A DNA stretch of 64,000 nucleotides from a virus: positions 36,840 through 100,839 of the IMG/VR virus record IMGVR_UViG_3300042731_008016; one strand, 5' to 3'. The notes beneath the pieces are model-generated. The model worked only from the letters and a program-made list of their open reading frames with translations, had not been told where the DNA came from and made no database searches. The position numbers were made by a program, and so were the translations under genes. This document shows positions 17,837-62,186 of this stretch, in pieces. Numbering within the stretch: the first letter of the stretch is position 1; each line of letters begins with the position of its first letter.

Positions 17837-17848
17837 AGCGGGATTAGT
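17836..17848 (+). repeat. 13-bp duplicate of the tRNA-Gly 5' end, left of the HNH gene
   Basis: AAGCGGGATTAGT occurs here and again at 18233-18245, where it forms the first bases of the intact tRNA-Gly. The two copies exactly bracket the HNH cassette (promoter plus gene), as expected for insertion at the tRNA 5' end with reconstruction of the disrupted sequence. Confidence 0.75.
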
Positions 17849-17876
17849 TGATTTTATAACTAATACCCACTATAAT
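17848..17876 (+). promoter_or_regulatory. promoter of a leaderless HNH gene
   Basis: -35 TTGATT at 17848-17853, 17-bp spacer, -10 TATAAT at 17871-17876. The ATG at 17885 is 8 bases past the -10, so transcription should begin at or within about two bases of the start codon; no Shine-Dalgarno is present. Confidence 0.75.
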
Positions 17877-17884
17877 GTGGCTAT

Positions 17885-18244
17885 ATGCCATATAAGGACA
17901 TTAAAAAACGAAGACAGAGTTCTCGAAAATACTATTATGCAAATCGAGAGAGGCTAATCGAGCAACAACGAGAGTATCGAGTAAAGTTGCGATTAGAGGT
18001 TCTTTCTCATTATAGTAATGGAGAGCCAAAATGTGCGTGTTGCAAAGAAAGCCAAATAGAATTTCTAGCAATAGACCATATCAATGGAGGTGGTACTAAG
18101 CATAGAAAAAGAATTGGCGGAGGAATGCACACCTATCTTTGGTTGAAAAAGCAAGGCTATCCGAAAGGATACAGAGTCTTATGTCATAATTGTAATCAAG
18201 CTTATGGCTTTTTCGGATACTGTCCTCACAATAAGCGGGATTAG
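17885..18244 (+). CDS. HNH homing endonuclease (tRNA-Gly-associated)
   Basis: 119 residues. A basic helical N-terminus (YKDIKKRRQSSRKYYYANRE) precedes the HNH core: CACCKES, FLAIDHINGGGTKHRK, and VLCHNCNQAYGFFGYCPH, giving the catalytic DHI, the following N/G region and a C-x2-C pair for structural zinc. It is closely related to the HNH protein at 61710. The gene is leaderless, and its last 10 bases, including the stop TAG, are the first bases of tRNA-Gly. Likely a mobile nuclease cutting a tRNA-Gly target. Confidence 0.85.
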   Translation: MPYKDIKKRRQSSRKYYYANRERLIEQQREYRVKLRLEVLSHYSNGEPKCACCKESQIEFLAIDHINGGGTKHRKRIGGGMHTYLWLKKQGYPKGYRVLCHNCNQAYGFFGYCPHNKRD

Positions 18245-18308
18245 TGTATTGGCGACACGACATCCTTCCAAGTTGTAGAAAGGGGTTCGATTCCCCTATC
18301 CCGCTCCA
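18235..18308 (+). tRNA. tRNA-Gly (TCC)
   Basis: Acceptor GCGGGAT (18235-18241) with ATCCCGC (18298-18304), discriminator T, encoded CCA. D stem GTGT/ACAC, anticodon loop CTTCCAA (18265-18271) giving TCC, T arm AGGGG/TTCGATT/CCCCT. The anticodon stem has one T-T mismatch. Its first 10 bases overlap the stop end of the HNH gene. Confidence 0.9.
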
Positions 18309-18309
18309 A

Positions 18310-18354
18310 ACATTATGATGTTGACAATATAATGTCGAAAAAACAAACATTATA
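18310..18354. promoter_or_regulatory. palindromic operator-like sites ACATTAT/ATAATGT
   Basis: Just after tRNA-Gly, ACATTAT and ATAATGT halves face each other across 18311-18336, and a perfect 14-bp palindrome AACATTATAATGTT follows at about 18341-18354. A TTGACA (18323) and TATAAT hexamers lie within but not at proper spacing. Suggests binding by a dimeric regulator near the basic-protein gene at 18448. Confidence 0.4.
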
Positions 18355-18386
18355 ATGTTGTTATTAATAAATCTAGGAGAAAAGAC

Positions 18387-18450
18387 CATGACTATATAGT
18401 CGCCTAACCCATTATTTTGAAGGGCGACCCCGAAGGGGGTGATAGTCATG
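18387..18450 (+). promoter_or_regulatory. structured leader sequestering a start codon, with 3-codon upstream ORF
   Basis: CATGACTAT (18387-18395) pairs with ATAGTCATG (18442-18450); inside, GTCGCC (18399-18404) pairs with GGCGAC (18423-18428), and CCCC/GGGG flanks a GAA loop at 18428-18438. The right arm holds the ATG of the next gene and the inner stem holds its GGGGGTGAT ribosome site. A separate AGGAGA precedes ATG at 18388 that reads Met-Thr-Ile-stop. A translating ribosome there would open the hairpin, so this looks like translational control. Confidence 0.55.
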
Positions 18451-18636
18451 AGTACGCCTAGAAAAGGCCGAGGTAAATCTGGTAGTAGAAAATACGGTAG
18501 AAACAAGGTCAAATGTGCCCTTTACCGTGTGCAAAATCGAAGAGAGAAAAATAAATTGAGAAAGCTAAAAAAACTCTCTAAGAAACAGCCAAACAACAAA
18601 CAGATTCCAAAGCTAATCAAAAAGCTAGAAGGATAA
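18448..18636 (+). CDS. small very basic protein, 62 aa
   Basis: Starts MSTPRKGRGKSGSRKYGRNK and continues with NRREKNKLRKLKKLSKKQPN; over a third of residues are Lys or Arg. Ribosome site GGGGGTGAT lies 7 bases upstream but within a hairpin (18387-18450). The composition and the location among tRNAs suggest RNA binding or a ribosome-like protein (inference). No family recognised. Confidence 0.5.
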   Translation: MSTPRKGRGKSGSRKYGRNKVKCALYRVQNRREKNKLRKLKKLSKKQPNNKQIPKLIKKLEG

Positions 18637-18691
18637 TTAAATGTTAACCGATGCTAAATACCATCATAAAAGCTACGGCATCACCTTTCAT

Positions 18692-18765
18692 GGTGACGGT
18701 AGCTTAGTGGCAAAGCACTCGGTTGTGGTCAGAGGGACGGGGGTTCGAATCCCCTCCATCACCCA
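18692..18765 (+). tRNA. tRNA-His (GTG)
   Basis: The extra 5' G (18692) faces C73 (18763), the His hallmark. Acceptor GTGACGG/CCATCAC has one mismatch. Anticodon loop TTGTGGT (18723-18729) gives GTG; T arm GGGGG/TTCGAAT/CCCCT. The 3' end encodes only CA after C73. A competing hairpin with upstream sequence exists (AGCTAC 18671-18676 with GTAGCT 18699-18704; TCACC with GGTGA). Confidence 0.85.
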
Positions 18766-18811
18766 AAGCACATTAAATAATCAACAGAACTAATTACATC
18801 CTGCGCATTAT

Positions 18812-18884
18812 TGCGGAGTGGTGTAACGGTAGCACGCTGGGCTTTGAACCCAGAGGTCTTTGTTCGAATCAAAGCTTCGCATCA
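18812..18884 (+). tRNA. tRNA-Gln (TTG)
   Basis: Acceptor TGCGGAG with CTTCGCA (18875-18881), starting with the U1-A72 pair typical of Gln. Perfect anticodon stem CTGGG/CCCAG around CTTTGAA, anticodon TTG. T arm CTTTG/TTCGAAT/CAAAG. Discriminator T then CA; the tail is incomplete. Confidence 0.9.
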
Positions 18885-18889
18885 TAGAA

Positions 18890-18918
18890 TTGACAATATA
18901 TATTTGAATTAATAAAAT
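18890..18918 (+). promoter_or_regulatory. promoter of a leaderless HNH gene
   Basis: Consensus -35 TTGACA at 18890-18895, 17-bp spacer, -10 TAAAAT at 18913-18918. The ATG at 18925 begins exactly 6 bases after the -10, where the +1 base is expected. It starts 6 bases after the tRNA-Gln gene. Confidence 0.75.
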
Positions 18919-18924
18919 AGTTCA

Positions 18925-19269
18925 ATGCCACATAAAAATGTAGATGCTAGAAGAGCTTATGCTAGAGAATATTATAAAAGAAATCCACAAAGATGGATTG
19001 AAAAAAATAAAAAACGTAAAAAAGAAATATATAAATTTATAAGCGAATATAAAAGAAAAAATGGGTGTAAATTATGTGATGAGAATGAACCAGTAGCTTT
19101 AGATTTTCATCATATAAATAAAAACAAAGAAATCAATTTAGCACACGCTCAAACTAGAATGTGGGGAAAAACAAGAATTTTAAAAGAAATTAATAAATGT
19201 GTTGTATTATGTGCAAATTGTCATAGAAAAGTAGAAGCTGGAATAATAAAATTATCCAGGGAAGCATAA
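18925..19269 (+). CDS. HNH endonuclease (tRNA-Asn-associated)
   Basis: 114 residues: basic N-terminus (RRAYAREYYKRNPQRWIEKN), then CKLCDENEPVALDFHHINKN, and VVLCANCHRKVEAGI. This gives the zinc-binding C-x2-C pairs and the HH of the HNH site. It differs from the tRNA-Gly-associated HNH family in lacking DHIxGGG. The last 15 bases of the gene, coding Ser-Arg-Glu-Ala-stop, are the first bases of tRNA-Asn. Transcribed from its own promoter without leader. Confidence 0.8.
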   Translation: MPHKNVDARRAYAREYYKRNPQRWIEKNKKRKKEIYKFISEYKRKNGCKLCDENEPVALDFHHINKNKEINLAHAQTRMWGKTRILKEINKCVVLCANCHRKVEAGIIKLSREA

Positions 19270-19330
19270 TTGGCATTTGCATCGGACTGTTAATCCGAAG
19301 ACAGAAGGTTCGAATCCTTCTCCTGGAGCA
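19255..19330 (+). tRNA. tRNA-Asn (GTT)
   Basis: Acceptor TCCAGGG/TCCTGGA (19255-19261 with 19321-19327), discriminator G then CA. Perfect anticodon stem TCGGA/TCCGA around CTGTTAA, anticodon GTT. T arm GAAGG/TTCGAAT/CCTTC. The 5' 15 bases overlap the end of the HNH gene, including its stop codon. Confidence 0.9.
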
Positions 19331-19342
19331 CCTTAAAAATTT

Positions 19343-19578
19343 GATAGTTCGCACATGGGTGGCTGAATGAACCGCTATGCAGGGTTAAGGCACTATTGAT
19401 GAGTACCTCATTTAAGGGGGCTTAATTTGCTCACGATAGGTTGGGACGGTCACATATACCTAGTATGACTAAACTAAGACATACTACTGCAGAGATCGTC
19501 GTACTTGGGAAGTAAGTCCGAAGGAGGAGCAGAAGTGTTCGGTACGGAGGATGGTCTTCCCCCCAGTTGTGAGCTATC
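19343..19578 (+). ncRNA. unassigned multi-helix structured RNA between tRNA genes
   Basis: No ORF covers this stretch. An 11-bp closing helix joins 19343-19353 (GATAGTTCGCA) to 19568-19578 (TGTGAGCTATC, with two G-U pairs). Inside: TAGTATG/CATACTA (19461-19467, 19480-19486) with 12-base loop, ACGAT/ATCGT (19433-19437, 19495-19499) enclosing it, TGGGAAG/CTTCCC near 19506 and 19555, CCGAA/TTCGG (19518-19522, 19538-19542) and TTAAG/CTTAA (19385-19389, 19421-19425). GTGAGC in the closing helix can alternatively pair with GCTCAC at 19429-19434. It is not tmRNA or RNase P RNA by any motif I can see. GOLLD and ROOL RNAs also sit beside phage tRNAs but are larger. Confidence 0.7.
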
Positions 19579-19585
19579 AAAACAT

Positions 19586-19753
19586 ACCCGAATCGTCTAG
19601 TGGTTAGGACGGCATAAATTTAGCACTAGGACAAGCTCCCTAGGGCAACAAGAAATTGAAGCCCTCAATTAACAGGTTATGCTCGTTTCGAATGAGCATA
19701 ATTAGTAAAATGGGCCAAATGTGCAAACCTAGGTTCAAATCCTAGTTCGGGTT
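19586..19753 (+). tRNA. tRNA-like gene interrupted in the anticodon arm by about 100 bases
   Basis: Acceptor ACCCGAA/TTCGGGT, D arm GTCT...GGAC (19595-19610) of tRNA-Glu/Gln style, T arm CTAGG/TTCAAAT/CCTAG. The anticodon stem GCATA (19612-19616) pairs with TGTGC (19720-19724), but 103 bases separate them instead of 7. The insert contains an H-type pseudoknot (AGGGC 19642-19646 with GCCCT 19661-19665; AATTG 19654-19658 with CAATT 19666-19670) and a perfect 8-bp hairpin TTATGCTC/GAGCATAA (19677-19701). Too short for a normal group I intron. Anticodon not readable: no U33 falls in place for any simple splice. Confidence 0.55.
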
Positions 19754-19778
19754 CAAAAGATTATTAGGAAAAACAATT

Positions 19779-20114
19779 ATGGGTAGTAAATCATGGAAAA
19801 ATTTAGAATACGATGCTGCCGAAACACTCGGCGGAAAACGAATTAGCAGAGGAGCTAATTTCTCCGATTCAGCCCCAGATGTATGGATTGAAGATTTCCC
19901 AAAGTTCAAAATAGATACTAAAAGACGCAAAAAGTCTAATGCCTTGACGTTGTATAATGAAATCAAGGATAAATACTGTACAAAGAAGGGCGATCAGCCT
20001 ATTCTTATAATAAGGCAACATTACAAAAAAACAGCCTTAGCAGTTATAGATATAAAGTTGTTGGCAAAATTATTCGATTTTGTCAGAGAACATGAAGGTC
20101 AAGATGGGTTCTAA
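19779..20114 (+). CDS. PD-(D/E)xK nuclease-like protein, 111 aa
   Basis: Residues 5-52 read WKNLEYDAAETLGGKRISRG, then DSAPDVWIED and KFKIDTKRRKK. The D...IDTKR site and the leading Glu/Gly-Gly-Lys-Arg are those of small resolvase-like nucleases, as in the protein at 15626-15931, to which it is a distant relative at best. Likely role: processing branched DNA at recombination or before packaging. Start has taggaaaaa as a modest ribosome site. Confidence 0.55.
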   Translation: MGSKSWKNLEYDAAETLGGKRISRGANFSDSAPDVWIEDFPKFKIDTKRRKKSNALTLYNEIKDKYCTKKGDQPILIIRQHYKKTALAVIDIKLLAKLFDFVREHEGQDGF

Positions 20115-20940: not shown

Positions 20941-21602
20941 CTGACTTAAATGCCCTATTACCAAATCCAAAAGATATTAATTTATCTGCAGCTCACGTTG
21001 ATTTTAAACACCTAGATAAAACAGCTCTCAGACGTGCAAAAGTTCGTGAATTAATGCAGATGGGTTACAACAATACCCAAATTTCCCTAATTTTAGAAAA
21101 AGGAATTAGAGTTGGTGAGGGAAATGAACAAAAAGAAGTTCAAGTCCCCTGTAGTGAAGGTACTATCAGAAATGATATTAACTACATTCAAACTGAGTTC
21201 CTTTCAGCTGATGATGACATGTTGGTCAAAAGAGGCGAGCTTCTAGATAAACTTGGATTTCTTTATAATCAAGCTGTATCAAATTACACAACAGCAAAAG
21301 GGGCAGTTAAAAATAGTTTCTTGAATACAGCTTTAAATGTTATTAATAAGATTATGGAGGTTGAAGGTGTAAAATCTCCAGAGAATCTTAATGTTAATCT
21401 AAATGCAGAAGCTAAAGTAGCTCAGTTTGCTGCAGAAATACATAAATTAAGCGAAAATGACAAATCTACTATTCTCAGCGCAATTCGAAAAGTTCGTGAG
21501 GGACGCTTCAACAAAGGAAATGGAGAATCTGGAGTTTCTGATTCAGAACCCGAAGTACGAGCATCGACCAGTAACGATGAAGGAGTTCCTGGAGAATCCT
21601 AA
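20937..21602 (+). CDS. terminase small subunit-like protein
   Basis: 221 residues, start overlapping the previous stop by 4 bases. A helix-turn-helix appears in RAKVRELMQMGYNNTQISLI and GTIRNDINYIQTEF, followed by a helical oligomerisation region. Position directly before, and overlapping, the large terminase is the main support. It would bind the packaging start site on phage DNA. The last 48 residues overlap the terminase frame and look like a charged tail. Confidence 0.6.
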   Translation: MTDLNALLPNPKDINLSAAHVDFKHLDKTALRRAKVRELMQMGYNNTQISLILEKGIRVGEGNEQKEVQVPCSEGTIRNDINYIQTEFLSADDDMLVKRGELLDKLGFLYNQAVSNYTTAKGAVKNSFLNTALNVINKIMEVEGVKSPENLNVNLNAEAKVAQFAAEIHKLSENDKSTILSAIRKVREGRFNKGNGESGVSDSEPEVRASTSNDEGVPGES

Positions 21603-24600
21603 ATTTGTTAATCCACAGGATGCTCCAAGACCTCATAATAAGCAACTCTTAATCGATATTTTTGATAGCGGTAAAACATTTGAAGATTTTGAGAACCTTG
21701 GTAAATACGAGGAGGCTCTCTATATTGCTGGAATTGGGAGTGGTAAATGTCTTGCTAGGGGAACCAAAATCATCCGCTATTCAGGTAAGGTTGATGTTGT
21801 AGAAAATATTAAACAAGGTGACTTGTTAATGGGCTGGGACAGTAAGCCAAGAAAGGTGATCTCACTATCAAGGGGCAGGGAAAAATTATATAAAGTAACT
21901 CCAACTAAAGGCGAACCTTTTATCATAAATCAATCCCATATTTTGTCGCTTAAAAGAACAAACAGGGGTATTATTGCCAATAATGGCAGGTTAGATCAAA
22001 AAGCAGGAGAGATAATAAACATATCAGTCTTGGAATATCTAGAGTTAAGCAACAAAATGAAGAACATTTTAAAACTATGGAGGGTTGGTATAAATTTTAA
22101 GAAAAAGAAGGTTAGTATAGATCCATACTTTTTGGGACTATGGTTGGGGGACGGTAATTCTCATAATATCGGAATCGCCACACAGGACATTGAGATTAAG
22201 AATGAAATATATAAACAAGCAAAAGTTTGTGGACTCGTGGTAAATATTAATCAAAATAAAAACAAAACTTGTCCAACATATATTGTCACAAGTGGAACAA
22301 AGTTGGGAAGTAAAAACAGAAATTCGCTATTAGAAAATTTTAAACAATATAATCTCATCAAAAATAAATATATTCCGCAAGTATATAAATTCAACTCAAA
22401 GAAAATCAGATTACAGTTGTTAGCAGGGCTAATTGATAGCGATGGATATCAAGGAAATAACTGTTTGGAGTTTTCCAATAAAAATAAAACCTTAATTGAT
22501 GATATTACATACCTGTGTCGTTCGTTAGGTTTTGCTGCCTATATAAAACAAAGGAAAACTTCCTGCAATGGAAAATCATTCATATCATATAGAGTTTCTA
22601 TATCGGGAGATTTAGAAAAAATTCCTGTTCAACTAGAAAGAAAAAAATGTACTAAAAGGACACAAAAGAAGGATGTTCTTTTAACTGGATTTAAAATAGA
22701 ACCTATTGGAATTGGTGATTATTATGGATTTGATGTAGATAGAGACCATTTGTATTTATTAGGTGATTTCACAGTTACCCATAATTCTTATGTTTCCTCA
22801 ATGGCCATTGTTTATAATATTTATCGTCTTCTTTGCTTAAAAGATCCACAAGCCTATTTTAAATTTGCTAAAGGCACAAAGATTGCTTTTATTAACATTT
22901 CCACATCTTTTTCACAAGCTAAGGATGTTGTTTTTAGCGAAATTAAAAACCGTGTTGATAACAACCAATGGTTTCAAAACTTCTTTCCACCTAACCCGAG
23001 AATTAAATCACTTCTTCAATTCCCTAAAAATATTTATATTTTGCCTCTAGGATCAAATGAAGAGTCTCCTCTCGGATACAATATTTTTGGAGCCGTCATT
23101 GACGAGGCTTCATTTCATACTTTAACTAAAGATAAAGATTACGCTGAAGAATCTTATAACCAGATTAAGAAACGTATTCGTTCTCGATTTTTATCTAAAG
23201 GAAAACTTTTCATTATTACTTCACCTCGGTACGTTTATGACTTCGCTGAGAAGAAAATGGAAGAGGAAGCTGATAATCCAAAAGTTTATAAAAAAAGAAC
23301 TCCTCTCTGGGATGCTATGCCACCAGATAGATTCTCTGGACAAAAATTTGATCTAGGCAAATATCTCCCCGCCTATAAGGGCGTCATGGTCCCCGTGGAA
23401 TACGAGGACGAGTTCAAACAAAATCCCGAGAAAGCCATGCGGGACTATGGCGCCCAACCATCTCAAGCTATCCAAAGCTTTTTTGCTAATCCATCAATCA
23501 TTGATGATAATGCTAATTATGATAGAAAACACCCAATTAATCCCAAAGATGGTGAATTTCACACATGGTTTTTCAACAGAGCAAGTCAAGAAGATTATGA
23601 TTCAGATAAAAGATTTATTCATGTTGACCTTGGACTTAATAGAGAAGGAAAAGGCGACTGTGCTGGGTTTGCTATGGGTAAATTTGATGGATGGATTGAA
23701 AAACAGAGTACATCTGGAAAAATGGAAAAGCGTCCAAAAGTTAAAATTGATCTTATGTTAAGAATTGAGGCTGGACCACGCAAAGAAATTAAATTTGAAG
23801 AAATCAGACAAATGATCTATAAAATCAGAGATATTGGTTATAATATTCACAAGATTACTTTTGATGGTTGGCAAAGCGAAATTGGAAGTACAATGGTCAA
23901 GTTGCTTGATGGGACAAACAAAAGAATGGATGAAATTACAAACGGTGCTTGGATTTATTCATTTGACTTAAATAAAAAAGAAATTGTCCCAGCCTTTTGT
24001 AAACCAGTAAAACAAACTGGAATAAATGCTCCAGTTTACGAAATCATCATAGATAATGGACAAAAAATATACCTAACAAAAGAACATCCATTGTTAATGA
24101 AAAATGGAACCTATAAACAAGTAGAGTTTCTTAAATGTGGAGATAGTTTGATGCCATTTAATACAAGCTTTTTAGAAAGAAAAAACAAAACTAATACAAA
24201 ACCAAGACAATATGAAAAAATATTCCAACCAAATACAAATACTTGGGAAATGACACATGATATGGTTGCTAGGAATGTTTATGGAGAAAAACCAAAAAAT
24301 AATGTAGTTCATCATAAAGATTTTAATTCTCTAAATAATGAACCAGACAATTTAGAGTATTTATATGTTAAGAAGCATACTGCATATCATCGAAAATTAA
24401 CTCAAAAATCTAATCAAATCAGATGGTCAAAAAAAGGTGAAAGACGGAAGCAAGCTCAATTAATGAGAGATAGAAATAAAAAATATAATTTACCATCTTT
24501 ATTAAAACCACCAACTAAAGAGATTGCTAAAAAAATAGCACTAACAATTAAAAACAAATGGGACAATAATAACGAATATCAAGAAAAAATGGCAAAAAGA

Positions 24601-25203
24601 CCAGTATATTGTGGTGAGTATTCTCCACATTTTAATAGAGATATACCTAATGAAATATTATTTAAAGCCTGTGCTACCAGTAATTCTCTGGAAGAAGTTA
24701 AGCAAAAATTGAACCTTAAAAATACGTTTTTTGTTATAAGAAGATTAAAGACATTGGGTTACAAAGGATTCAAGGACTACAAATCACAAAAAAATCATAA
24801 AGTTGTATCTGTCAAATTTCATGGATATGAGGATGTTTATGACATAGAAGTACCAAAATATAATAATTTTGGACTTTCGGCAGGTATATTTGTTCATAAT
24901 TCCATAGACTCTATTCAAATGCTTAATTCAGCTGGTTTTAAAGCTGAGACATTCTCAATCGATAGGAATCCAGAAGCCTACTATACCGTCAAAGCTGCAA
25001 TTTTAGATGATCGTCTTGATTATTACTATTACGCACCATTTTCTGAAGAACTTAAACAACTTGAAGAAATTAAAGGCATGAAAATCGATCACCCTAGACA
25101 AGGAAAGAAAGACGTAGCTGATGCTGTAGCTGGAGTATGTTATCACGCTGCACAAGGAACTCCTGGTGTCGGATTTCTTGGAGTCAAACAGACACAATCT
25201 TGA
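21457..25203 (+). CDS. terminase large subunit with two inteins
   Basis: 1248 residues as translated; removing inteins of 346 and 342 leaves a 560-residue terminase, a normal size. Walker A GIGSGK is split from its Ser by intein 1. Walker B follows in FGAVIDEASFH; the nuclease domain shows FIHVDLGLNREG and, after intein 2, continues to KDVADAVAGVCYH with its C-terminal acidic site. It pumps DNA into the prohead and cuts it. Start uncertain: 21457 overlaps the small subunit by 146 bases; 21520 is an alternative. Both insertion points are at functional sites, so splicing is required for activity. Confidence 0.9.
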   Translation: MTNLLFSAQFEKFVRDASTKEMENLEFLIQNPKYEHRPVTMKEFLENPKFVNPQDAPRPHNKQLLIDIFDSGKTFEDFENLGKYEEALYIAGIGSGKCLARGTKIIRYSGKVDVVENIKQGDLLMGWDSKPRKVISLSRGREKLYKVTPTKGEPFIINQSHILSLKRTNRGIIANNGRLDQKAGEIINISVLEYLELSNKMKNILKLWRVGINFKKKKVSIDPYFLGLWLGDGNSHNIGIATQDIEIKNEIYKQAKVCGLVVNINQNKNKTCPTYIVTSGTKLGSKNRNSLLENFKQYNLIKNKYIPQVYKFNSKKIRLQLLAGLIDSDGYQGNNCLEFSNKNKTLIDDITYLCRSLGFAAYIKQRKTSCNGKSFISYRVSISGDLEKIPVQLERKKCTKRTQKKDVLLTGFKIEPIGIGDYYGFDVDRDHLYLLGDFTVTHNSYVSSMAIVYNIYRLLCLKDPQAYFKFAKGTKIAFINISTSFSQAKDVVFSEIKNRVDNNQWFQNFFPPNPRIKSLLQFPKNIYILPLGSNEESPLGYNIFGAVIDEASFHTLTKDKDYAEESYNQIKKRIRSRFLSKGKLFIITSPRYVYDFAEKKMEEEADNPKVYKKRTPLWDAMPPDRFSGQKFDLGKYLPAYKGVMVPVEYEDEFKQNPEKAMRDYGAQPSQAIQSFFANPSIIDDNANYDRKHPINPKDGEFHTWFFNRASQEDYDSDKRFIHVDLGLNREGKGDCAGFAMGKFDGWIEKQSTSGKMEKRPKVKIDLMLRIEAGPRKEIKFEEIRQMIYKIRDIGYNIHKITFDGWQSEIGSTMVKLLDGTNKRMDEITNGAWIYSFDLNKKEIVPAFCKPVKQTGINAPVYEIIIDNGQKIYLTKEHPLLMKNGTYKQVEFLKCGDSLMPFNTSFLERKNKTNTKPRQYEKIFQPNTNTWEMTHDMVARNVYGEKPKNNVVHHKDFNSLNNEPDNLEYLYVKKHTAYHRKLTQKSNQIRWSKKGERRKQAQLMRDRNKKYNLPSLLKPPTKEIAKKIALTIKNKWDNNNEYQEKMAKRPVYCGEYSPHFNRDIPNEILFKACATSNSLEEVKQKLNLKNTFFVIRRLKTLGYKGFKDYKSQKNHKVVSVKFHGYEDVYDIEVPKYNNFGLSAGIFVHNSIDSIQMLNSAGFKAETFSIDRNPEAYYTVKAAILDDRLDYYYYAPFSEELKQLEEIKGMKIDHPRQGKKDVADAVAGVCYHAAQGTPGVGFLGVKQTQS
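21748..22785 (+). mobile_element. intein 1, LAGLIDADG type, in the terminase P-loop
   Basis: Begins at Cys1 (CLARGTKI), block B is GEPFIINQSHIL, homing domain has YFLGLWLGDGNS and LLAGLIDSDGYQ, and the end is YYGFDVDRDHLYLLGD then TVTHN followed by Ser+1 (codon 22786). Splicing rejoins GIGSGK-S, the ATP-binding loop. All catalytic splice residues (Cys1, block B His, His-Asn, Ser+1) are present, so it should be active. 346 residues. Confidence 0.92.
23875..24900 (+). mobile_element. intein 2, HNH type, in the terminase nuclease domain
   Basis: Begins at Ser1 (SEIGSTMVKLLDGT) after Asp-Gly-Trp-Gln; block B IYLTKEHPLLM; HNH homing domain NNVVHHKDFNSLNNEPDNLE near the middle; ends DVYDIEVPKYNNFG then GIFVHN followed by Ser+1. 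342 residues. It uses a Ser nucleophile and a different nuclease class from intein 1, so the two have independent origins. The rejoined sequence is TFDGWQ-SIDSIQ. Confidence 0.88.
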
Positions 25204-25228
25204 CGTTTCCTAGAAACCCCAGTAAGAT
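25200..25228 (+). promoter_or_regulatory. promoter of a leaderless LAGLIDADG gene, overlapping the terminase stop
   Basis: -35 TTGACG at 25200-25205 contains the TGA stop of the terminase gene; 17-bp spacer; -10 TAAGAT at 25223-25228. ATG at 25235 is 6 bases past the -10. No ribosome site. Confidence 0.7.
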
Positions 25229-25234
25229 TAAAAA

Positions 25235-25684
25235 ATGTTAAGTTTACAATATTTAGCTGGATTTACTGACGCTGATGGAAGCATAACCATAAGCAAATTT
25301 AAAACAACAACTGGTTGTGGTCTAAAATTTAGAATTAGGGTTCGTATAGCAAACATAAGACTTGATATTTTAGAGCAAATTAAAAAACAATATGGTGGGT
25401 GGATAGAAAAAATACCAAGAAAAGCAAACGATAGACAATGTTATAGATGGTGTACTGCCGATAAATCTGCTGCTAAATTTTTACAGAAAATATATCCATA
25501 TTTATTTATTAAAAAGAAACAAGCAAGTATGTGTCTAGAACTTTATGAGATGAGTAAAAAATTAAAAACTCAAAGAAAAAATACTGGGCAATTTATAAAA
25601 GCATCTAAAAAAGAATTACAAAGGAAACTTCAATTAGTAGAAGAAATTAGATTGCTCAACAGACGTGGATTTTTAGGCGCATAA
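25235..25684 (+). CDS. single-motif LAGLIDADG homing endonuclease
   Basis: 149 residues with one motif, QYLAGFTDADGSITI (residues 5-19), so it should act as a homodimer. The middle NIRLDILEQIKKQYGG and C-terminal LQLVEEIRLLNRRG are as in this small subfamily. It sits in the gap between terminase and portal genes with its own promoter and no ribosome site. Its target is probably the terminase-portal junction or a nearby gene (inference). Confidence 0.85.
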   Translation: MLSLQYLAGFTDADGSITISKFKTTTGCGLKFRIRVRIANIRLDILEQIKKQYGGWIEKIPRKANDRQCYRWCTADKSAAKFLQKIYPYLFIKKKQASMCLELYEMSKKLKTQRKNTGQFIKASKKELQRKLQLVEEIRLLNRRGFLGA

Positions 25685-25762: not shown

Positions 25763-27331
25763 ATGAAAATTCCAAAAATTTTCGAAAAAACCATCCTTAA
25801 TTCAGAACAAGTACAAGCTAAAGTTGAAGCTGCCAAAGACGAAGCTATAAAAAATGCGAAAGAAGAAATTGAACAGTCAGCTAAGACAAAATACAATAAA
25901 GAAGTTGTTAAAAGTGTAAACGAAGCTTTAGTTGCTGCTAAGAAGGATTGGGCTGTTGATACTGTAAAAGCAATGGATCGAAAGTTTGGAAAATCTAGAC
26001 AATATGTTTCAACTACTGGTAATTATGGTCAAGAAAAATTTAATGCTAAAAAATATGAATCTGGTAAAAACTACAATACTTTAACCACTTTATTTAGTGA
26101 TTCTCCTGGATCAATTCAAGCTGCTTCTCGTATAAAAGATGCTGTTCTTGGTGGTGGATATGTTATCAAACCAGAAGAGAAAAAAGGCACCAAACAAGAT
26201 TTTAAGAAATTAATTAATTTCTTTGATATGCCTAATCCAGATGACACAATTGAAACATTATTAGGTGTTTCTATTGAAAATTATTTAGCTTATGGAAATT
26301 TTTACTGGGAAAAAGTCCCAACAAGAGGTTCCGCAAATAAAAAGAAAAAAATTCTAGCATCGGTTTATAATCTTGATCCAACCAAAATGATTATTTTAGT
26401 TGATGCTGCTCAAAAGAAAAAAGGTGTGTTGGAAAAAGTTGGCTTTGCTAGAAAAACTGACCAAAATAAATCAGTAATTTACTCATTAGATGAGGTATTC
26501 CATGTTCGAAGACCAAGCAGAAAAGCTGATCTTTATGGTAGAGCTGTTTTAGAAGACAATATGGCCACTCTTCAACTTCTATTGAGAGCTGTTACTTTCA
26601 ATATTAATATTTTAAGAAATGGTGGTCGTCCACCTTTGCAATTAATTCTCCCTGAAGATTCTACTGAAGCTGATGCCGAAGCAGTATCAGCATGGTGGGA
26701 AAAGAACTATGAGGGACCACACAATGCTGGTAAAACACTGATTACATTTAAAGGAGCTAAAGCTGATCCCCTCGGAATCACTCCACAAGAAATGGCCTAT
26801 CTAGAATTGTTACGCTATGGTTTAAGACTCGTAGCTGGACAATATGGTGTTCCATTATTGTTAATGGGATTTCCAGAAGGTACAAATCGAGCTACTGCTT
26901 CAGAAGCCAGACGTTCATTTTATTTAACAAATATTTTCCAATTAAGAAAACTTATTTCTCAAAAAATAACTAGAGAGCTCATCAAAGACGGAATGGGTAT
27001 TGAGGGTTGGAGAATTGACTTTAAATCTGCTGGTCTAGAAGAATCAGAATCTTCACGAAGAGACTTCATGACTGGATGGGCTAAAGGTCTATACACATTT
27101 AATGAAGCTAGAATTGCAATGGGTCTATTACCAATTGATGAGAAATGGGCAAATAAATACTTCTTACTAGGCACAAAGAATGATTCATTGATCGAGATCG
27201 AAAAAGCTATTGGACGAGAACCAGATGATTCAAATCCAGATGATTCAAATCCAAAAACAAAGACTCCACCAGGGGAACATAGCCCTAGTGGTGATGACAA
27301 AACCAGTGACAATGATAAAGAAAACCAATAA
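25763..27331 (+). CDS. portal protein
   Basis: 522 residues. A Lys/Glu-rich helical N-terminus (about 1-75) is followed by a portal fold: SGSIQAA-type segment, LFSDSPGSIQAASRIKDAVL, VFHVRRPSRKADLYGRAVLE, TFNINILRNGGRPPLQLIL, and VAGQYGVPLLLMGFPEGTNR, which matches the conserved region of HK97/SPP1-type portals. Twelve copies form the DNA channel at one capsid vertex and dock the terminase encoded upstream. The C-terminal 40 residues (NPDDSNPDDSNPKTKTPPGE) are a disordered tail with a short duplication. Confidence 0.85.
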   Translation: MKIPKIFEKTILNSEQVQAKVEAAKDEAIKNAKEEIEQSAKTKYNKEVVKSVNEALVAAKKDWAVDTVKAMDRKFGKSRQYVSTTGNYGQEKFNAKKYESGKNYNTLTTLFSDSPGSIQAASRIKDAVLGGGYVIKPEEKKGTKQDFKKLINFFDMPNPDDTIETLLGVSIENYLAYGNFYWEKVPTRGSANKKKKILASVYNLDPTKMIILVDAAQKKKGVLEKVGFARKTDQNKSVIYSLDEVFHVRRPSRKADLYGRAVLEDNMATLQLLLRAVTFNINILRNGGRPPLQLILPEDSTEADAEAVSAWWEKNYEGPHNAGKTLITFKGAKADPLGITPQEMAYLELLRYGLRLVAGQYGVPLLLMGFPEGTNRATASEARRSFYLTNIFQLRKLISQKITRELIKDGMGIEGWRIDFKSAGLEESESSRRDFMTGWAKGLYTFNEARIAMGLLPIDEKWANKYFLLGTKNDSLIEIEKAIGREPDDSNPDDSNPKTKTPPGEHSPSGDDKTSDNDKENQ

Positions 27332-35451: not shown

Positions 35452-37767
35452 ATGGATATATTTTTCAAAAAAATTAATGCTGGAATATTAAACGATCACT
35501 TCGATCAACTCGGAGGCGGAACTGTTCACTCATTCAAATTTATCGAATACCTTAAAGAATTTTACAATTGTGATGTCTATCTTCCAAAAGAACCAAAAAG
35601 TAAATCGTGGATGCAACAAATGCTCAATATCGATACTAAGAATGTCAATTTTTATAAATACACTAAAGGTATTGGAGAAAAATATAAATATTTGTTTTTA
35701 AATATTTCTCATTGGAAAGCAGAAGAAACAGAGGCACTTAAAAAATTTATGCTTGTTTTCTTTCCACAATTTTTCTTTCCAACTTTTGATTATAAATTTT
35801 TAGCAAACTCGAAATACACAAAAGACAACATTATTAAGAGATGGCATAAACCAATTAAAGACATATTGATTGTGTACCCGCCCATAATGACTAATGAGTT
35901 TAAACCAGGTAAAAAAGAAAATATTATTCTTCATGTAAGTAGACTATCAAGCCCAAAACCAGAAGCAGATAAAGGTCACGCTCAAATGATTGAAACCTTT
36001 AAAGAAATGTATGATGCTGGAATTACTAAAAATTGGGAGTTTCATTTAGTTGGGCAAGTTCAAGATCCACAATATGTAGCACAATTGAAAATTCAGACCA
36101 AAGGATATCCAATTATATTTAACGAGGGAATTCCATTTTCTAGATTAAAGCAACTCTATGCTAAAGCAAAGATTTATTGGCACATGACAGGAATCACAAT
36201 GCCTCATGAGCCAGGAGCCCAAGAACATTTCGGAATGACAACTGTAGAAGCAATGGCAAGTGGATGTGTCCCTGTAGTATTAGCAACTGGAGGCCAACCA
36301 GAAATAGTAGATGATGGTAAAAACGGCTTTTTAGTTGAAGATACTATATCTTTACAACGGAAAACAAAGTTCTTAATTGAAGATGACAGTCATAGAGCCA
36401 GCATGTCTAAAAATTCTGTTAAAAAAGCAGCTATTTTTGATGAAAAAGAAATTAGAAAGAAATTCTGGTCAATTATTGCTGGTACAGATAAAGTTTCAAT
36501 TATTATTATTAATTGGAATAATGCAAATTACACGAGAGAATGTGTTGAAAAACTTTATGAAGTAACACCTCCAGGATTTGAATTAATCATTGTCGATAAT
36601 GCTTCTGAAGATAATTCCAAAACAGTTCTAACTCAACTAAAAAAAGACTATCCAGATATTAAGCTTAAATTCTCCAAAACAAATCGTGGGTTTGCTGGAG
36701 GTAATAATTATGCTCTTAAAGATGCTACCAGAAAATATATTTGTTACTTGAATAATGATACTCTTCCTCAATATGGGTGGCTTGAAAGAATGGTTGATGT
36801 TTTAGAAAACAATCCTAAGGCTGGTATAGTTGGAGCAAGACTTTATTTCCCAAAGAAAACAGATCAATCATGGGAAGTCCAACATGCTGGAATTTCATTT
36901 AATGCAGATTATGAACCGAAACATATCGGAAGATTTAGGCAGGATCATCAAATTAATAAAATTGGCATAGAAGAGGTTGAGGCGGTAACTGGAGCTTGTA
37001 TGTTAGTTAGAAAAAAACTAGCCAAATTTAATGAAAACTATGAGCGTGGTTATTATGAAGATATCGAATTATGCCTTGAAGCCAGGGAAGATGATTATAA
37101 AGTTTACATTAATCATGAAGCAAAATTAATTCATTATGAAGGTGCTTCTCAAAATATAGCCAAGAAAAAAGATAGCCAAAAATTTAAAGATATTACGATT
37201 AAAAACAAAGAATTGTTTCACAATAAGTGGGATAAAAAAATGAAAAAGATGTCAAAAATTTCTAAGCAGCTTGATACTGCAGGGATTCATCATGTCCAAA
37301 ATTTAGAAATTGGTGGTGGAGAAAATCCGCTTCATCCAAAATATCATCAGCTAGATATAAGACAAGTTGGTAAAGTCAAGTTTATCAACGATGCTAGATT
37401 ATTACCATTTTCATCAAACTCAATTAAGAGTATTTGTGCTTGCTATATTTTACAATGCTTTATTGAAAGCGAAGCACTAATGGCTTTAAAAGAATGGTTT
37501 AGATGTTTAAGCCCAGAAGGAAGACTTGAAATTCATGTTCCAGATTTAGATAAAGTTATGCGTATGTTTGTCAGCACTAATGAAGAAGAATATCTAAAAG
37601 AAATTTATGGTGCTCAAGAACATGTGAATGATTACTATCATCACGGCTGGGTATTTCCAACACTAGATAGATTATTAACTAAAGCTGGCTTCGTAAGAGT
37701 CACTAAAATTAAATCGCCTGCCCATAGACCAAATTCTTTGTCTATTGAGGCGTTCAAACCATTATGA
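35452..37767 (+). CDS. trifunctional GT4-GT2-methyltransferase fusion
   Basis: 771 residues in three blocks. About 1-340: GT-B/GT4, ending with EHFGMTTVEAMASGCVPVVL near 262-281. About 345-600: GT-A/GT2, VSIIIINWNNANYTRECV at about 349, FELIIVDNASEDNSK, YLNNDTLPQYGWL and YYEDIELCLEA. About 615-771: SAM methyltransferase, NLEIGGGENPLHPKYHQLDI and LPFSSNSIKSICACYILQCF. One chain could add two sugars and methylate, or cap, the product. No frameshift or stop separates the domains. Confidence 0.85.
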   Translation: MDIFFKKINAGILNDHFDQLGGGTVHSFKFIEYLKEFYNCDVYLPKEPKSKSWMQQMLNIDTKNVNFYKYTKGIGEKYKYLFLNISHWKAEETEALKKFMLVFFPQFFFPTFDYKFLANSKYTKDNIIKRWHKPIKDILIVYPPIMTNEFKPGKKENIILHVSRLSSPKPEADKGHAQMIETFKEMYDAGITKNWEFHLVGQVQDPQYVAQLKIQTKGYPIIFNEGIPFSRLKQLYAKAKIYWHMTGITMPHEPGAQEHFGMTTVEAMASGCVPVVLATGGQPEIVDDGKNGFLVEDTISLQRKTKFLIEDDSHRASMSKNSVKKAAIFDEKEIRKKFWSIIAGTDKVSIIIINWNNANYTRECVEKLYEVTPPGFELIIVDNASEDNSKTVLTQLKKDYPDIKLKFSKTNRGFAGGNNYALKDATRKYICYLNNDTLPQYGWLERMVDVLENNPKAGIVGARLYFPKKTDQSWEVQHAGISFNADYEPKHIGRFRQDHQINKIGIEEVEAVTGACMLVRKKLAKFNENYERGYYEDIELCLEAREDDYKVYINHEAKLIHYEGASQNIAKKKDSQKFKDITIKNKELFHNKWDKKMKKMSKISKQLDTAGIHHVQNLEIGGGENPLHPKYHQLDIRQVGKVKFINDARLLPFSSNSIKSICACYILQCFIESEALMALKEWFRCLSPEGRLEIHVPDLDKVMRMFVSTNEEEYLKEIYGAQEHVNDYYHHGWVFPTLDRLLTKAGFVRVTKIKSPAHRPNSLSIEAFKPL

Positions 37768-41776: not shown

Positions 41777-41890
41777 ATGAAAATAGGAAGTCAAATAAGT
41801 GGTATCTATAAATATTGGACAGGCAAAAAAAGGTCTAAGGAGACGAAAAAGAAGATAAGTTATAAATTATCAGGAGGTAAAAATGAATAA
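41777..41890 (+). CDS. 37-aa NUMOD3-like peptide, probable homing-nuclease remnant
   Basis: Within the only gap in the sugar operon larger than 100 bases. AAAGGA lies 10 bases upstream of ATG 41777. The product contains YKYWTGKKRSKETKKKIS, matching the NUMOD3 DNA-binding motif (GKxxSxETKxKIS) found in tails of HNH and GIY-YIG homing nucleases. No catalytic domain adjoins it. It may be a decayed nuclease or a stand-alone DNA-binding peptide. Confidence 0.45.
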   Translation: MKIGSQISGIYKYWTGKKRSKETKKKISYKLSGGKNE

Positions 41891-50824: not shown

Positions 50825-50853
50825 TTGAAGTATTTGTATATATATTATATAAT
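50825..50853 (+). promoter_or_regulatory. promoter of a leaderless LAGLIDADG gene
   Basis: -35 TTGAAG at 50825-50830 directly follows the preceding stop codon; 17-bp spacer; -10 TATAAT at 50848-50853. ATG at 50860 is 6 bases past the -10. No ribosome site. Confidence 0.75.
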
Positions 50854-50859
50854 TCTGCT

Positions 50860-51315
50860 ATGACTAAAAATGAGGAGTTAGCATATATAGCAGGAATAAT
50901 AGATGGAGAAGGTTATTTAGGGATTGGAACAACAAAATCAAGCGTTGGGAATATTTGTTATTATCCAAGATTAACAATCCATATGTTAGATGAAGAAGCA
51001 ATAAAAATAGCTTGTGACTTTTTCAAAATTAAAATTAGACGTAGTAAATTAAATAAGAAAGACTATTATAGTTTTTACGCTACTGGTAAAAAATTAAAAG
51101 AGGTATTACTGAAAATAATAAGTTATTTACAGGTTAAAAAAACTCACGCACTTCTATTATTAGAATTAATAAAAACAAAAGATGATTATAAACCAATTCC
51201 TATTAGAAAAAATGGGCACTTTGCTGGAACAAAACCAGTTCCAAAAGAAGTAACTAAAAAAAGAAAACTTATTTATGATGATTTTAGAAAATTACAAGAA
51301 AGACATAAAAAATGA
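50860..51315 (+). CDS. single-motif LAGLIDADG homing endonuclease
   Basis: 151 residues with one motif AYIAGIIDGEGYLGI (residues 8-22), Glu replacing the second Asp as often seen. Basic tail (KEVTKKRKLIYDDFRKLQER). Inserted between dehydrogenase and deacetylase-like genes with its own promoter; its end overlaps the next ATG by 4 bases, keeping downstream translation coupled. Likely homodimeric nuclease. Confidence 0.85.
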   Translation: MTKNEELAYIAGIIDGEGYLGIGTTKSSVGNICYYPRLTIHMLDEEAIKIACDFFKIKIRRSKLNKKDYYSFYATGKKLKEVLLKIISYLQVKKTHALLLLELIKTKDDYKPIPIRKNGHFAGTKPVPKEVTKKRKLIYDDFRKLQERHKK

Positions 51316-57473: not shown

Positions 57474-57507
57474 ACTCGTAAAAACAAATCAAATTAGTAA
57501 AAGACTA

Positions 57508-57541: not shown

Positions 57542-57555
57542 GATGATGTTATACT
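57526..57555 (+). promoter_or_regulatory. promoter behind the capsid terminator
   Basis: -35 TTGTCT at 57526-57531 within the terminator arm, 18-bp spacer, extended -10 TGTTATACT ending 57555. Two AAAGTCTTA copies follow at 57565 and 57577 (12-bp period), then the ribosome site taaggag. Drives the virion genes from 57599. Confidence 0.6.
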
Positions 57556-57598
57556 CAATTTATAAAAGTCTTATTAAAAGTCTTAGTAAGGAGAAAAT

Positions 57599-58024: not shown

Positions 58025-58049
58025 ATTAATAACTTTGGGAGAATAAAAT

Positions 58050-58340: not shown

Positions 58341-58386
58341 GTTAAAAGCTAGGAAACAGTAAAAGTATGAAGGTAGTTTATATTAC

Positions 58387-58415
58387 TTGTTTTTTGGTTA
58401 AAAATCCCTTATTAT
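58387..58415 (+). promoter_or_regulatory. promoter of an HNH gene with a normal leader
   Basis: -35 TTGTTT at 58387-58392, 17-bp spacer, -10 TATTAT at 58410-58415, then a 21-base gap holding AGGGG before ATG 58437. Contrasts with the leaderless homing genes. Confidence 0.5.
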
Positions 58416-58436
58416 TAGTTTAATAGGGGTATTTTT

Positions 58437-58958
58437 ATGACCAAAATTATATGTATTGATTGCGGTAGAAAGTGCAAACGAACTGGTAGTAGGCAAAAAA
58501 GATGTCCTGAGTGTCGTAGGTCAAATATGCTAAAGAGATACAGAGAAAAGTATCGTAAAAAAACAACATTAAACCCAAATTTTAATAAGGAACATTACTC
58601 TAAAAATAAAAACAGTATAAGATTAAACCAAAAAAAGTATTATTTAAAAACACGAGATGTATTACGTCAAAAGGCATTTAAGATATTAGCTAACGGTAAA
58701 AAAATTGGATGTGCCAATCACGACGAATGGGGATGTTGTCAAGACCCATTTGATTTAGATATATTACAAATTGACCACATTAAAAACGATGGTGCAGAAC
58801 ACAGAAAAGAAATTAAAGGAGGTCTTACTTTTTACAGATGGATAATAAATAATCCAAAAGTTGCACGGGCGAGGTTGCAAATAATTTGTGCCAATGCTCA
58901 ATGGAAAAAAAGAAGATTGGTTGAAAAAAAAGAAAGGAAAAGGCTTAGACTATCATGA
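58437..58958 (+). CDS. HNH endonuclease, degenerate second zinc pair
   Basis: 173 residues. N-terminal zinc knuckle (CIDCGRKCKRTGSRQKRCPE), basic middle, then ILQIDHIKNDGAEHRKEIKG and LQIICANAQWKKRRL. In relatives at 17885 and 61710 the last motif is LCxNCN; here Cys is replaced by Ala-Gln, so structural zinc binding may be lost. The DH catalytic pair remains. Overlaps the next gene by 4 bases. Confidence 0.75.
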   Translation: MTKIICIDCGRKCKRTGSRQKRCPECRRSNMLKRYREKYRKKTTLNPNFNKEHYSKNKNSIRLNQKKYYLKTRDVLRQKAFKILANGKKIGCANHDEWGCCQDPFDLDILQIDHIKNDGAEHRKEIKGGLTFYRWIINNPKVARARLQIICANAQWKKRRLVEKKERKRLRLS

Positions 58959-60019: not shown

Positions 60020-61115
60020 ATTAAATTTGCTATTCATACCAAGAGACAATAAAGGTTGCGGTTTTTATCGCATGATGGTACCTGCCAATGAGATTAAAAG
60101 GCAAGATCTTGCTAACGTAGTAGTAAACTTTGGTTGGGATTGGAAGTTAGTTGAATGGGCGCACGTAGTCATTGTTCAAAGAATGACTGACGTTCAGGCT
60201 TACGAGGCCATTGACCAGGCACATTCTATTGGAAAAAAAATTATTTTTGAGATCGATGATTATGTAAATGCTATTTCTCCTCAGAATCCTTCATTTGATT
60301 TCTGGAGTCCATTTGGACCAAACTACGGACGTTGCTTAAAAATCATGAAAAAGTGTGATGCAGTTCAAGTAACTACAGATAGACTTAGAAATGAATATGC
60401 CTTGTGGAATCCTAGAATTGAAGCTCTTCCAAACTGTTTAGATAAGACTCTTTGGGACGTTCCAGCTTGGACAGCTACTCATTGGGATAACTACTATAAG
60501 AAGAAAAATGATGGTATTATAAGAATAGGGTGGGCTGGTGCAGCAAGTCATTATCAAGACTTAAAATTAGTCGAAGAGGTAATTACTAAACTGTGTCAGA
60601 AATACTATAATGTGCACTTTGTCATGATGGGGTACCACGGAGAATCTAAAACTGGACCTGATCTATTCAAAAACATTCCTAATGCTACAGCTGTGTGTCC
60701 ACACTGTAAACATGGGGGTCAACTTGAAAAGGTGCCTGGAATTGATTTATTATATTACCCAAGTAAGCTTAAAGAGGCAGCATTCGATATTGGAATCGCA
60801 CCTTTAATAGAGACTGGATTTAACCAGGGTAAAAGTGATATAAAGATAAGAGAGTATTCAGCGCTGAGTATTCCTGTTGTAGCCACCAGGATGAAGCCAT
60901 ATAGTGAAAGTGTGAAGGAAGGATACACAGGGTTCTTAGCATCTACAGGGAAGGAATGGTATGATGCTTTGGAACTCTTAATCAAGGATGAAGAGTTAAG
61001 GAAAAGACTCGGACGTAACAACTATCGTTGGTACAAAGAAAATACCATCGATAAACATATCCATAAATGGATCTCCTTCTACAATCGAGTCGTAAGTTTC
61101 AAGTTTAAATGGTAA
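59979..61115 (+). CDS. GT4-like glycosyltransferase
   Basis: 378 residues: NLLFIPRDNKGCGFYRMMVP near 14-33, IIFEIDDYVNAISP (a conserved DD in this GT1/GT4-like group), RIGWAGAASHYQDLKLVEEV, and KIREYSALSIPVVATRMKPY. The start lies 41 bases inside the preceding gene behind aaggagg. Likely acts with it. Confidence 0.75.
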   Translation: MPVAQAGDVQKPNRLNLLFIPRDNKGCGFYRMMVPANEIKRQDLANVVVNFGWDWKLVEWAHVVIVQRMTDVQAYEAIDQAHSIGKKIIFEIDDYVNAISPQNPSFDFWSPFGPNYGRCLKIMKKCDAVQVTTDRLRNEYALWNPRIEALPNCLDKTLWDVPAWTATHWDNYYKKKNDGIIRIGWAGAASHYQDLKLVEEVITKLCQKYYNVHFVMMGYHGESKTGPDLFKNIPNATAVCPHCKHGGQLEKVPGIDLLYYPSKLKEAAFDIGIAPLIETGFNQGKSDIKIREYSALSIPVVATRMKPYSESVKEGYTGFLASTGKEWYDALELLIKDEELRKRLGRNNYRWYKENTIDKHIHKWISFYNRVVSFKFKW

Positions 61116-61163
61116 ACTATAGTTAGTTTGCCTAATTATTATTAAAAAGGAGGAACACTTAAT

Positions 61164-61670
61164 ATGGCTGCAACATTTCAATGGTGGGGCGAATACGGTT
61201 CAACTGGTTCCCCAACTACTAGCGACTTAGGTGTTTCTGGAAACCTTTTTAACTTTAAGACATATAATGACTTGTCAAGTCCTTCGGATTACACATCGTA
61301 TCCGATCACAGCTGGCAACAACTCTTATGATGTTTGGTTGAAAGGTCATTTTACAGGAACATTTAATAAAGTTCAGAACGGTAAGTTCTGGAAATCTAGT
61401 GGTGCCTTGGGAACTGGAGAAGCAATCCAATTTGTTGGACATATAACTGCTTATCACCAACCAACAACAGGTGATAGCTCTTATGCTTCTGCCGACGTAC
61501 CTACATCATCACCAGGCTCAGCTAATGTGTCCTTCGGTGGAGACCTCGCTGGTAACATTACTGGCGCAGGATATTCAGACTTCGTTGTACTACAGTTGCA
61601 AACAACAACTGCTGCCGAAGCTGGAGACACTGAAACATTCACATTCACATTAACATACGATGAGAATTAG
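61164..61670 (+). CDS. probable virion structural protein, 168 aa
   Basis: Strong site aaaggagg. Rich in Ser, Thr, Gly and aromatic residues with alternating strands (ATFQWWGEYGSTGSPTTSD, SDFVVLQLQTTTAAEAGDTE, FTFTLTYDEN), typical of tail-tube, decoration or fibre proteins. High use of C-ending codons like the capsid gene. Exact role unknown. Confidence 0.6.
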   Translation: MAATFQWWGEYGSTGSPTTSDLGVSGNLFNFKTYNDLSSPSDYTSYPITAGNNSYDVWLKGHFTGTFNKVQNGKFWKSSGALGTGEAIQFVGHITAYHQPTTGDSSYASADVPTSSPGSANVSFGGDLAGNITGAGYSDFVVLQLQTTTAAEAGDTETFTFTLTYDEN

Positions 61671-61673
61671 TTC

Positions 61674-61702
61674 TTGTTAATTTAGCAAGAATTAAATATA
61701 AT
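61674..61702 (+). promoter_or_regulatory. promoter of a leaderless HNH gene
   Basis: -35 TTGTTA at 61674-61679, three bases after the preceding stop; 17-bp spacer; -10 TATAAT at 61697-61702. ATG at 61710 lies 7 bases past the -10. No ribosome site. Confidence 0.7.
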
Positions 61703-61709
61703 TGTATGT

Positions 61710-62186
61710 ATGAGTAGGTGGTTAAAAGACAATCCAAGCAAACATGCTAAATACATGAGAACTTGGGTAAAGTCAGAAAAAGGCATAGAGTACAAGAAGA
61801 AGCACAAAGAATATATGAAAAAATGGCGGAAAAAGAATTCTGCCAGAAGTCGCTCTTTACAAAAGAAATATTATAGAGAATTGAGATATGAAATAATATC
61901 TCATTATGGAGGAAATCCTCCTAAGTGTAAATGTTGCGGAGAATCAATATTTGAATTCCTAACGATTGACCATATTGATGGAGGAGGCAACCAACATAGA
62001 AAATCTCTTAAAGTAGGTGGTAATGGATTGTACGCTTGGATAAAGCGAAATAATTTTCCACCTATATTTCAAGTTCTTTGTGCAAATTGTAATTATGCTA
62101 AGTGGACTGATAAAGAATGTCCACATAAAACCATCAAGTTGAACCAGATGAGAACTAAAAAATTAGTAAAAGTTAAAGTTAGTTAA
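61710..62186 (+). CDS. HNH homing endonuclease
   Basis: 158 residues: basic N-terminus with HAKYMRTWVKSEKGIEYKKK, then CKCCGESIFEFLTIDHIDGG and GNQHRKS, and FQVLCANCNYAKWTDKECPH. The order CxCC / DHIxGGGxxHRK / LCxNCN / CPH is shared with the HNH at 17885, so these are recent paralogues. Inserted between virion genes, with its own leaderless promoter. Confidence 0.85.
   Translation: MSRWLKDNPSKHAKYMRTWVKSEKGIEYKKKHKEYMKKWRKKNSARSRSLQKKYYRELRYEIISHYGGNPPKCKCCGESIFEFLTIDHIDGGGNQHRKSLKVGGNGLYAWIKRNNFPPIFQVLCANCNYAKWTDKECPHKTIKLNQMRTKKLVKVKVS

Follow-up and report, generated by a model that had tools for sequence, protein, structure and literature searches.

How free-standing homing genes are expressed wherever they have landed, without disturbing or depending on the programme of the phage, has been worked out mainly for T4. 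There, I-TevI, I-TevII, I-TevIII and segB, and likewise mobE of Aeh1, have their own promoter beside the gene, a phage middle or late promoter, and only transcripts from this promoter are productive, as read-through RNA folds into a hairpin that masks a Shine-Dalgarno (SD) sequence about 8 nt before the AUG; seven free-standing T4 homing genes are described as promoter-less (PMC2988022). Leaderless genes, which have no 5' untranslated region, are marked in bacteria by TA-like signals (TANNNT) some 10-12 bp before the start and are a trait of the host genome in Actinobacteria and Deinococcus-Thermus (PMC3160421). Cluster O mycobacteriophages have predicted SigA-like promoters whose +1 falls on the start codon, but these serve operon-leading genes and are not described as a homing-gene design (PMC4351075). 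For the hidden HNH endonuclease of ShiLan, which has no ribosome-binding site, leaderless-type initiation was proposed; no promoter was described, the reading frame is part of a longer transcript and the case is limited to a mycobacteriophage (PMC11855218). Private promoters of homing genes, leaderless phage genes and leaderless-type initiation for one HNH gene are already known, each separately. Here, we describe five homing-endonuclease genes in which these traits appear to be joined, since a sigma70-type promoter directly abuts the start codon. They lie in a 64-kb stretch (64,000 nt, hereafter the window; positions 36,840 to 100,839) of the 100,839-bp IMG/VR virus record IMGVR_UViG_3300042731_008016.

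The genes are named by type and first position. LAGLIDADG 25235 and LAGLIDADG 50860 have a LAGLIDADG_1 domain and HNH 17885, HNH 18925 and HNH 61710 belong to phrog_2255 of PHROGs, so that all five contain the homing-family nuclease domain by which free-standing homing genes are recognised. An earlier reading of the letters alone (the sequence-only reading) had already called HNH 17885 and HNH 61710 HNH genes; this holds, but via PHROGs and alignments and not via Pfam. The 70 nt upstream of each ATG were searched for the best sigma70-type match with an E. coli promoter model. In 5/5 genes the best match was a -35/-10 pair with a 17-bp spacer, within the 16-18 bp of sigma70-type promoters, and with 9-11 of 12 consensus matches. 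The distance d from the end of the -10 to the ATG is 8, 6, 6, 6 and 7 nt for HNH 17885, HNH 18925, LAGLIDADG 25235, LAGLIDADG 50860 and HNH 61710, respectively. The features are as follows (G001 and G002 are related contigs):

17838..17853, + strand: retained 5' end of the invaded tRNA-Gly (gcgggattagttgatt), holding the -35 of HNH 17885; identical to the uninvaded tRNA-Gly of L003
17848..17853, + strand: -35 TTGATT of HNH 17885, conserved in the orthologue
17871..17876, + strand: -10 TATAAT of HNH 17885, spacer 17, 8 nt to ATG, conserved in the orthologue
17885..18244, + strand: HNH homing endonuclease (phrog_2255), 3' end overlapping tRNA-Gly 18235-18308
18890..18895, + strand: -35 TTGACA of HNH 18925, 7 nt past the end of tRNA-Gln
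18913..18918, + strand: -10 TAAAAT of HNH 18925, spacer 17, 6 nt to ATG
18925..19269, + strand: HNH homing endonuclease (phrog_2255), 3' end overlapping tRNA-Asn 19255-19329
25170..25203, + strand: altered 3' tail of the large terminase gene (TerL) ending in TGA; the inserted unit begins here
25200..25205, + strand: -35 TTGACG of LAGLIDADG 25235, overlapping the TerL stop codon
25223..25228, + strand: -10 TAAGAT of LAGLIDADG 25235, spacer 17, 6 nt to ATG
25235..25684, + strand: LAGLIDADG_1 homing endonuclease, whose gene invaded terL at its 3' end
25662..25684, + strand: former TerL 3' end (..RGFLGA stop), displaced by the insert and now coding for the C-terminus of LAGLIDADG 25235
50825..50830, + strand: -35 TTGAAG of LAGLIDADG 50860, immediately past the upstream stop
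50848..50853, + strand: -10 TATAAT of LAGLIDADG 50860, spacer 17, 6 nt to ATG
50860..51315, + strand: LAGLIDADG_1 homing endonuclease
58437..58958, + strand: counter-example, HNH-like gene without abutting promoter in a conserved gene row; the G001 orthologue has an SD
61674..61679, + strand: -35 TTGTTA of HNH 61710, 4 nt past the upstream stop
61697..61702, + strand: -10 TATAAT of HNH 61710, spacer 17, 7 nt to ATG
61710..62186, + strand: HNH homing endonuclease; at this site G001 has a LAGLIDADG gene and G002 is empty

Coordinates, hexamers, spacers and -10 to ATG distances as given in the sequence-only reading were exact on recheck, as was the position of the -35 on, or 1-7 nt past, the end of the upstream gene or tRNA in 4/5 cases. 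The upstream gene ends 31, 35, 39 and 41 nt before the ATG in four of the five. None of them has an SD (matches of 3 nt at most), as had been claimed; that most other genes have one is only roughly right, with a match to the consensus of at least 4 nt in 61 and at least 5 nt in 41 of the 96 window genes. All five show a -10 placed 6-8 nt before the start without an SD, the sequence mark of leaderless genes, and none shows the T4 type of arrangement with an SD hidden by a read-through hairpin. In standard sigma70 geometry, +1 lies about 7 nt downstream of the -10. Because the -10 ends 6-8 nt before the ATG, transcription would be expected to start on, or next to, its A. Against true starts further downstream, behind a normal leader, which we consider very unlikely, stand the in-frame stops just upstream of the annotated starts, at which no SD is seen, and the comparison of HNH 17885 with its 78-79% identical orthologue, where homology begins at residue 1 and the ATG is at the same place.

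At 65% A+T weak promoter matches are common, and -10-like words could have been picked by eye. We therefore used a strict criterion for the layout (spacer 17, d 6-8, score of at least 9 of 12). Among the 173 open reading frames (ORFs) of the genome it was reached by 5/6 homing-type genes vs 1 of about 167 others (Fisher p=3e-8), and in dinucleotide shuffles of each upstream region with p=0.005, 0.011, 0.001, 0.013 and 0.0155. A function-blind scan for the layout over 599 genes of the phage and its relatives gave 19 hits, with at least 9 homing genes among them (p=3e-11), including all LAGLIDADG and most HNH genes recognised by then; three HNH/NUMOD3 genes (L136:13764, L142:1071, L147:6651) were found only via their promoter and were confirmed by Pfam. 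Chance, which is rejected by the shuffles, by this unbiased scan and, in the survey below, by neighbouring genes and the internal controls at d 0-4 and 11-16, is hardly credible as an explanation. Nor is the same spacing as frequent before ordinary genes, a finding that according to the sequence-only reading would have spoken against a special design: own genome, family scan and survey controls agree. The other strong promoters of the genome (2217, 9214, 13496, 27407, 54540) lie 23-46 nt from start codons, and the phage therefore uses leadered sigma70-type promoters elsewhere. Unlike in the bacterial groups named above, the predicted TA-led leaderless organisation is found mainly in a single class of mobile genes, and the other genes of the phage are largely not organised in this way. 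A gene for a ROS/MUCR-type DNA-binding protein of 121 aa (13097-13462) shows the homing-gene layout (TTGATT-17-TATAAT, 10 nt before the ATG) though it is not recognised as a homing gene.

The window belongs to a tailed phage with 35% GC, nearly all genes of which are on a single strand. A DNA search for relatives found nothing similar among isolated phages, and a search with the portal protein (gene at 25763) for the host gave remote, mixed matches only. Single-sequence searches of IMG/VR with either LAGLIDADG gene yielded no close relatives, and an alignment was required as query. The relatives are IMG/VR contigs, the 102.5-kb G001, the 59-kb G002 and shorter pieces. Their homing genes are of three kinds, LAGLIDADG, EndoVII-like HNH and NUMOD3-HNH; no GIY-YIG genes were found in the genomes of the phage and its relatives. 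In this family the layout is a strong rule: the -10 lies 6-10 nt before the start in 13 of about 16 detectable homing genes, the five of the window included. G001 has a LAGLIDADG gene with TTGACA-17-TATAAT and d=10 and a NUMOD3-HNH gene with d=7; d is 6 for the LAGLIDADG gene of G006, 7, 8 and 8 for the NUMOD3-HNH genes of G003, G005 and G007, and 8 and 7 for two HNH genes of G009.

Comparison with uninvaded sites indicates how the promoters arrived. In 13 relatives the site between TerL and portal is empty: TerL ends ..GRGFLGA-stop or equivalent, followed by a short gap and the portal gene. In the window the insert starts within the last TerL codons and brings a changed TerL tail (VGFLGVKQTQS-stop), the promoter and the gene. 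Since the promoter is absent from all 13 empty sites and lies wholly within the inserted unit, it is part of the insert. A second site (61670/62202; L137, L140) holds an HNH gene in the window phage and a LAGLIDADG gene, of an unrelated family, in G001, the protein of which terminates in ..EWYDEN, like the target gene with its TYDEN end; the site is empty in G002, where the -10 of HNH 61710 is missing as well. Both sites show the presence/absence polymorphism at a fixed position that is typical of homing genes. At HNH 17885, the 16 nt ahead of the spacer, including the -35, are identical to the start of the tRNA-Gly that is uninvaded in L003, and a rebuilt tRNA lies behind the gene. Because the -35 is in the retained target, this insert brought only the -10. 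The portable cassette proposed in the sequence-only reading is therefore borne out in full at LAGLIDADG 25235 and for the -10 of HNH 61710, but not for the -35 of HNH 17885. Taken together, the inserts are units of promoter and ORF that sit at the ends of genes and in some cases draw on the target for their -35.

The G009 orthologue of HNH 17885 is 45/49 identical (92%) in the promoter block vs 78-79% in the ORF, with no similarity further upstream, and shares an inverted repeat GGGATTAGTT/AACTAATACCC (17838-17868) over the -35 and spacer, possibly an operator or an RNA hairpin. The main role of the conserved element might then be to bind the endonuclease, as an operator or a copy of the homing site, in the manner of I-TevI autorepression, and its resemblance to a promoter would be secondary. 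The -35 inside the retained tRNA copy adjoins this repeat, and the I-TevI operator resembles its homing site (PMC2988022). However, three unrelated kinds of gene share hexamers and spacing and no other upstream sequence, and the strands of 4/5 genes show no unusual folding, which makes this explanation unlikely. Between homing families we found no convincing upstream similarity beyond hexamers and spacing, and a common promoter module was rejected; of the two origins first considered, convergence or a shared module, convergence is therefore favoured.

The survey of free-standing homing genes for the -10 to ATG spacing, proposed together with shuffled controls in the sequence-only reading, was positive. 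It comprised 174 LAGLIDADG and HNH homologues, non-redundant and taken from contigs of IMG/VR and GTDB, with the first ATG as start and neighbouring genes as controls. The layout was present in 23/174 homologues vs 7/816 neighbours (p=8e-13) and, without this phage family, in 16/165 vs 7/816 (p=2e-8). The excess was limited to d=5-10, with a peak at d=6, the spacing of a leaderless start, and none at d=0-4 or 11-16; dinucleotide shuffles gave 2.6+/-1.6 expected vs 23 observed. A comparison restricted to intergenic starts, too small to carry weight on its own, gave 3/20 vs 0/82 (p=0.007). A NUMOD3-HNH set agreed more weakly (8/71 vs 8/247, p=0.01; two homing genes were removed from its neighbour controls by inspection), and the combined figure is 31/245 non-redundant homing genes vs 15/1063 neighbours (p=2e-13). 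Among isolates, the LAGLIDADG gene of Streptomyces phage Navo has TTGCGT-17-TACCAT-6-ATG behind a terminator-like hairpin. Across homing genes the layout is a widespread trait of a minority.

The data show the promoter sequences with their exact spacing, an excess relative to shuffles and to ordinary genes, the presence of the layout in homing genes of three kinds, its lack in an empty allele and its conservation in an orthologue. The probable explanation, in our view, is that a minimal sigma70-type promoter is joined directly to the start codon of free-standing homing genes in this phage family, either brought along by the gene or completed when it inserts, and that this gives a leaderless mRNA. 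Host RNA polymerase, presumably with its sigma70, would start on, or about 0-4 nt from, the A of the AUG, and the resulting mRNA would be read without an SD. A likely purpose is to let the homing gene land within the terminal codons of another gene or at the edge of a tRNA, where a leader or ribosome site is absent. Operon mRNA that reads through the homing gene has no ribosome site at the AUG and should be unproductive, so that the gene would be expressed from its own promoter only. The outcome should thus match the logic of I-TevI, own promoter productive and read-through silent, by different means and without a hairpin over an SD. RNA folding gave, for HNH 17885 alone, a strong and conserved hairpin across the AUG region of the read-through RNA (z=-4.3). 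As the other four are not unusual, a hairpin over the start was rejected as a general rule. On the whole, the interpretation offered in the sequence-only reading is supported by the contrast with ordinary genes, the survey, the TerL insert and the conserved orthologue, leaderless transcription itself being the inferred step.

The private promoters could also be real and their geometry simply forced by compactness, leaderless expression then being a by-product and not a selected design. With 31-41 nt behind the upstream gene, four of the homing genes have barely one promoter length available. However, HNH 17885 and the LAGLIDADG gene in the tRNA region of G006 have ample upstream space and yet show d=8 and d=6, and the peak at d=6 is also found in homing genes of other phages. 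We consider this explanation possible but rather doubtful; it would alter the reason for the layout, not the expected transcript.

Several observations weigh against a promoter fused to the start codon as a general property of homing genes. About 87% of the homologues elsewhere fail the strict test; the remaining 13% is a lower bound for an abutting promoter, because promoters that are weaker or depend on alternative sigma factors escape the strict score, and this figure carries no information on SD-led homologues. SD-like sequences precede the HNH genes of FelixO1, wV8 and Pectobacterium phage P7 and the LAGLIDADG gene of cyanophage PP, and homing genes are also preceded somewhat more often by additional promoters that would leave a leader of 15-25 nt. 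Within the family, some -35s belong to the target, as at HNH 17885, and those of G005 and of the third HNH gene of G009 are weak. True exceptions are HNH gene rc1452 of G009, which has GGGGG ahead of its ATG, and HNH 58437 with its orthologue in G001. The five genes first singled out have the layout, but this sixth homing-type gene of the window lacks it; the two orthologues stand in a conserved gene row and, the one in G001 being SD-led, resemble a settled gene.

Whether phage homing genes at large have converged on the fusion of promoter and start codon, a strategy of expression that permits splicing into coding ends and tRNA edges, translation only from the own leaderless transcript, and a signature specific enough to find unannotated mobile genes, is in our view evenly balanced. 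A leaderless, promoter-fused start would be a simpler answer than that of T4, suited to any site and any operon. If true, it would explain the autonomy of these tiny selfish genes and supply many naturally occurring leaderless mRNAs from beyond the classic host groups, as well as a sequence signature for homing genes, by which the layout scan already retrieved unrecognised ones in relatives. For a leaderless promoter design shared across homing-gene families, which the sequence-only reading did not know to be described, searches of open-access full texts likewise found no report (subscription papers and preprints were outside these searches).

Some further observations concern the invaded genes. 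TerL (21457-25203) has two intein-like insertions, one LAGLIDADG-type and one with an HNH_3 endonuclease, and together with LAGLIDADG 25235 it has thus been invaded three times. A homologue of LAGLIDADG 25235 also lies between terminase and portal in the unrelated cyanophage PP (L255), with an SD-like leader. Two LAGLIDADG genes (25170-25684; L137:1640-2200) end in frame with the displaced 3' end of the invaded gene (TerL ..RGFLGA; a 168-aa gene ..YDEN), and in both loci the upstream gene bears a substitute tail. Ahead of HNH 17885, positions 17765-17836 resemble a tRNA-Trp (CCA) found at the same place in L003; in the window ARAGORN reported none at these positions. A 46-codon frame with a NUMOD3 match (41777-41890) is read as the remnant of a lost NUMOD3-type homing gene. 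The 7.4-kb piece L145 of G009 contains four homing-type genes around a tRNA region, a hot spot.

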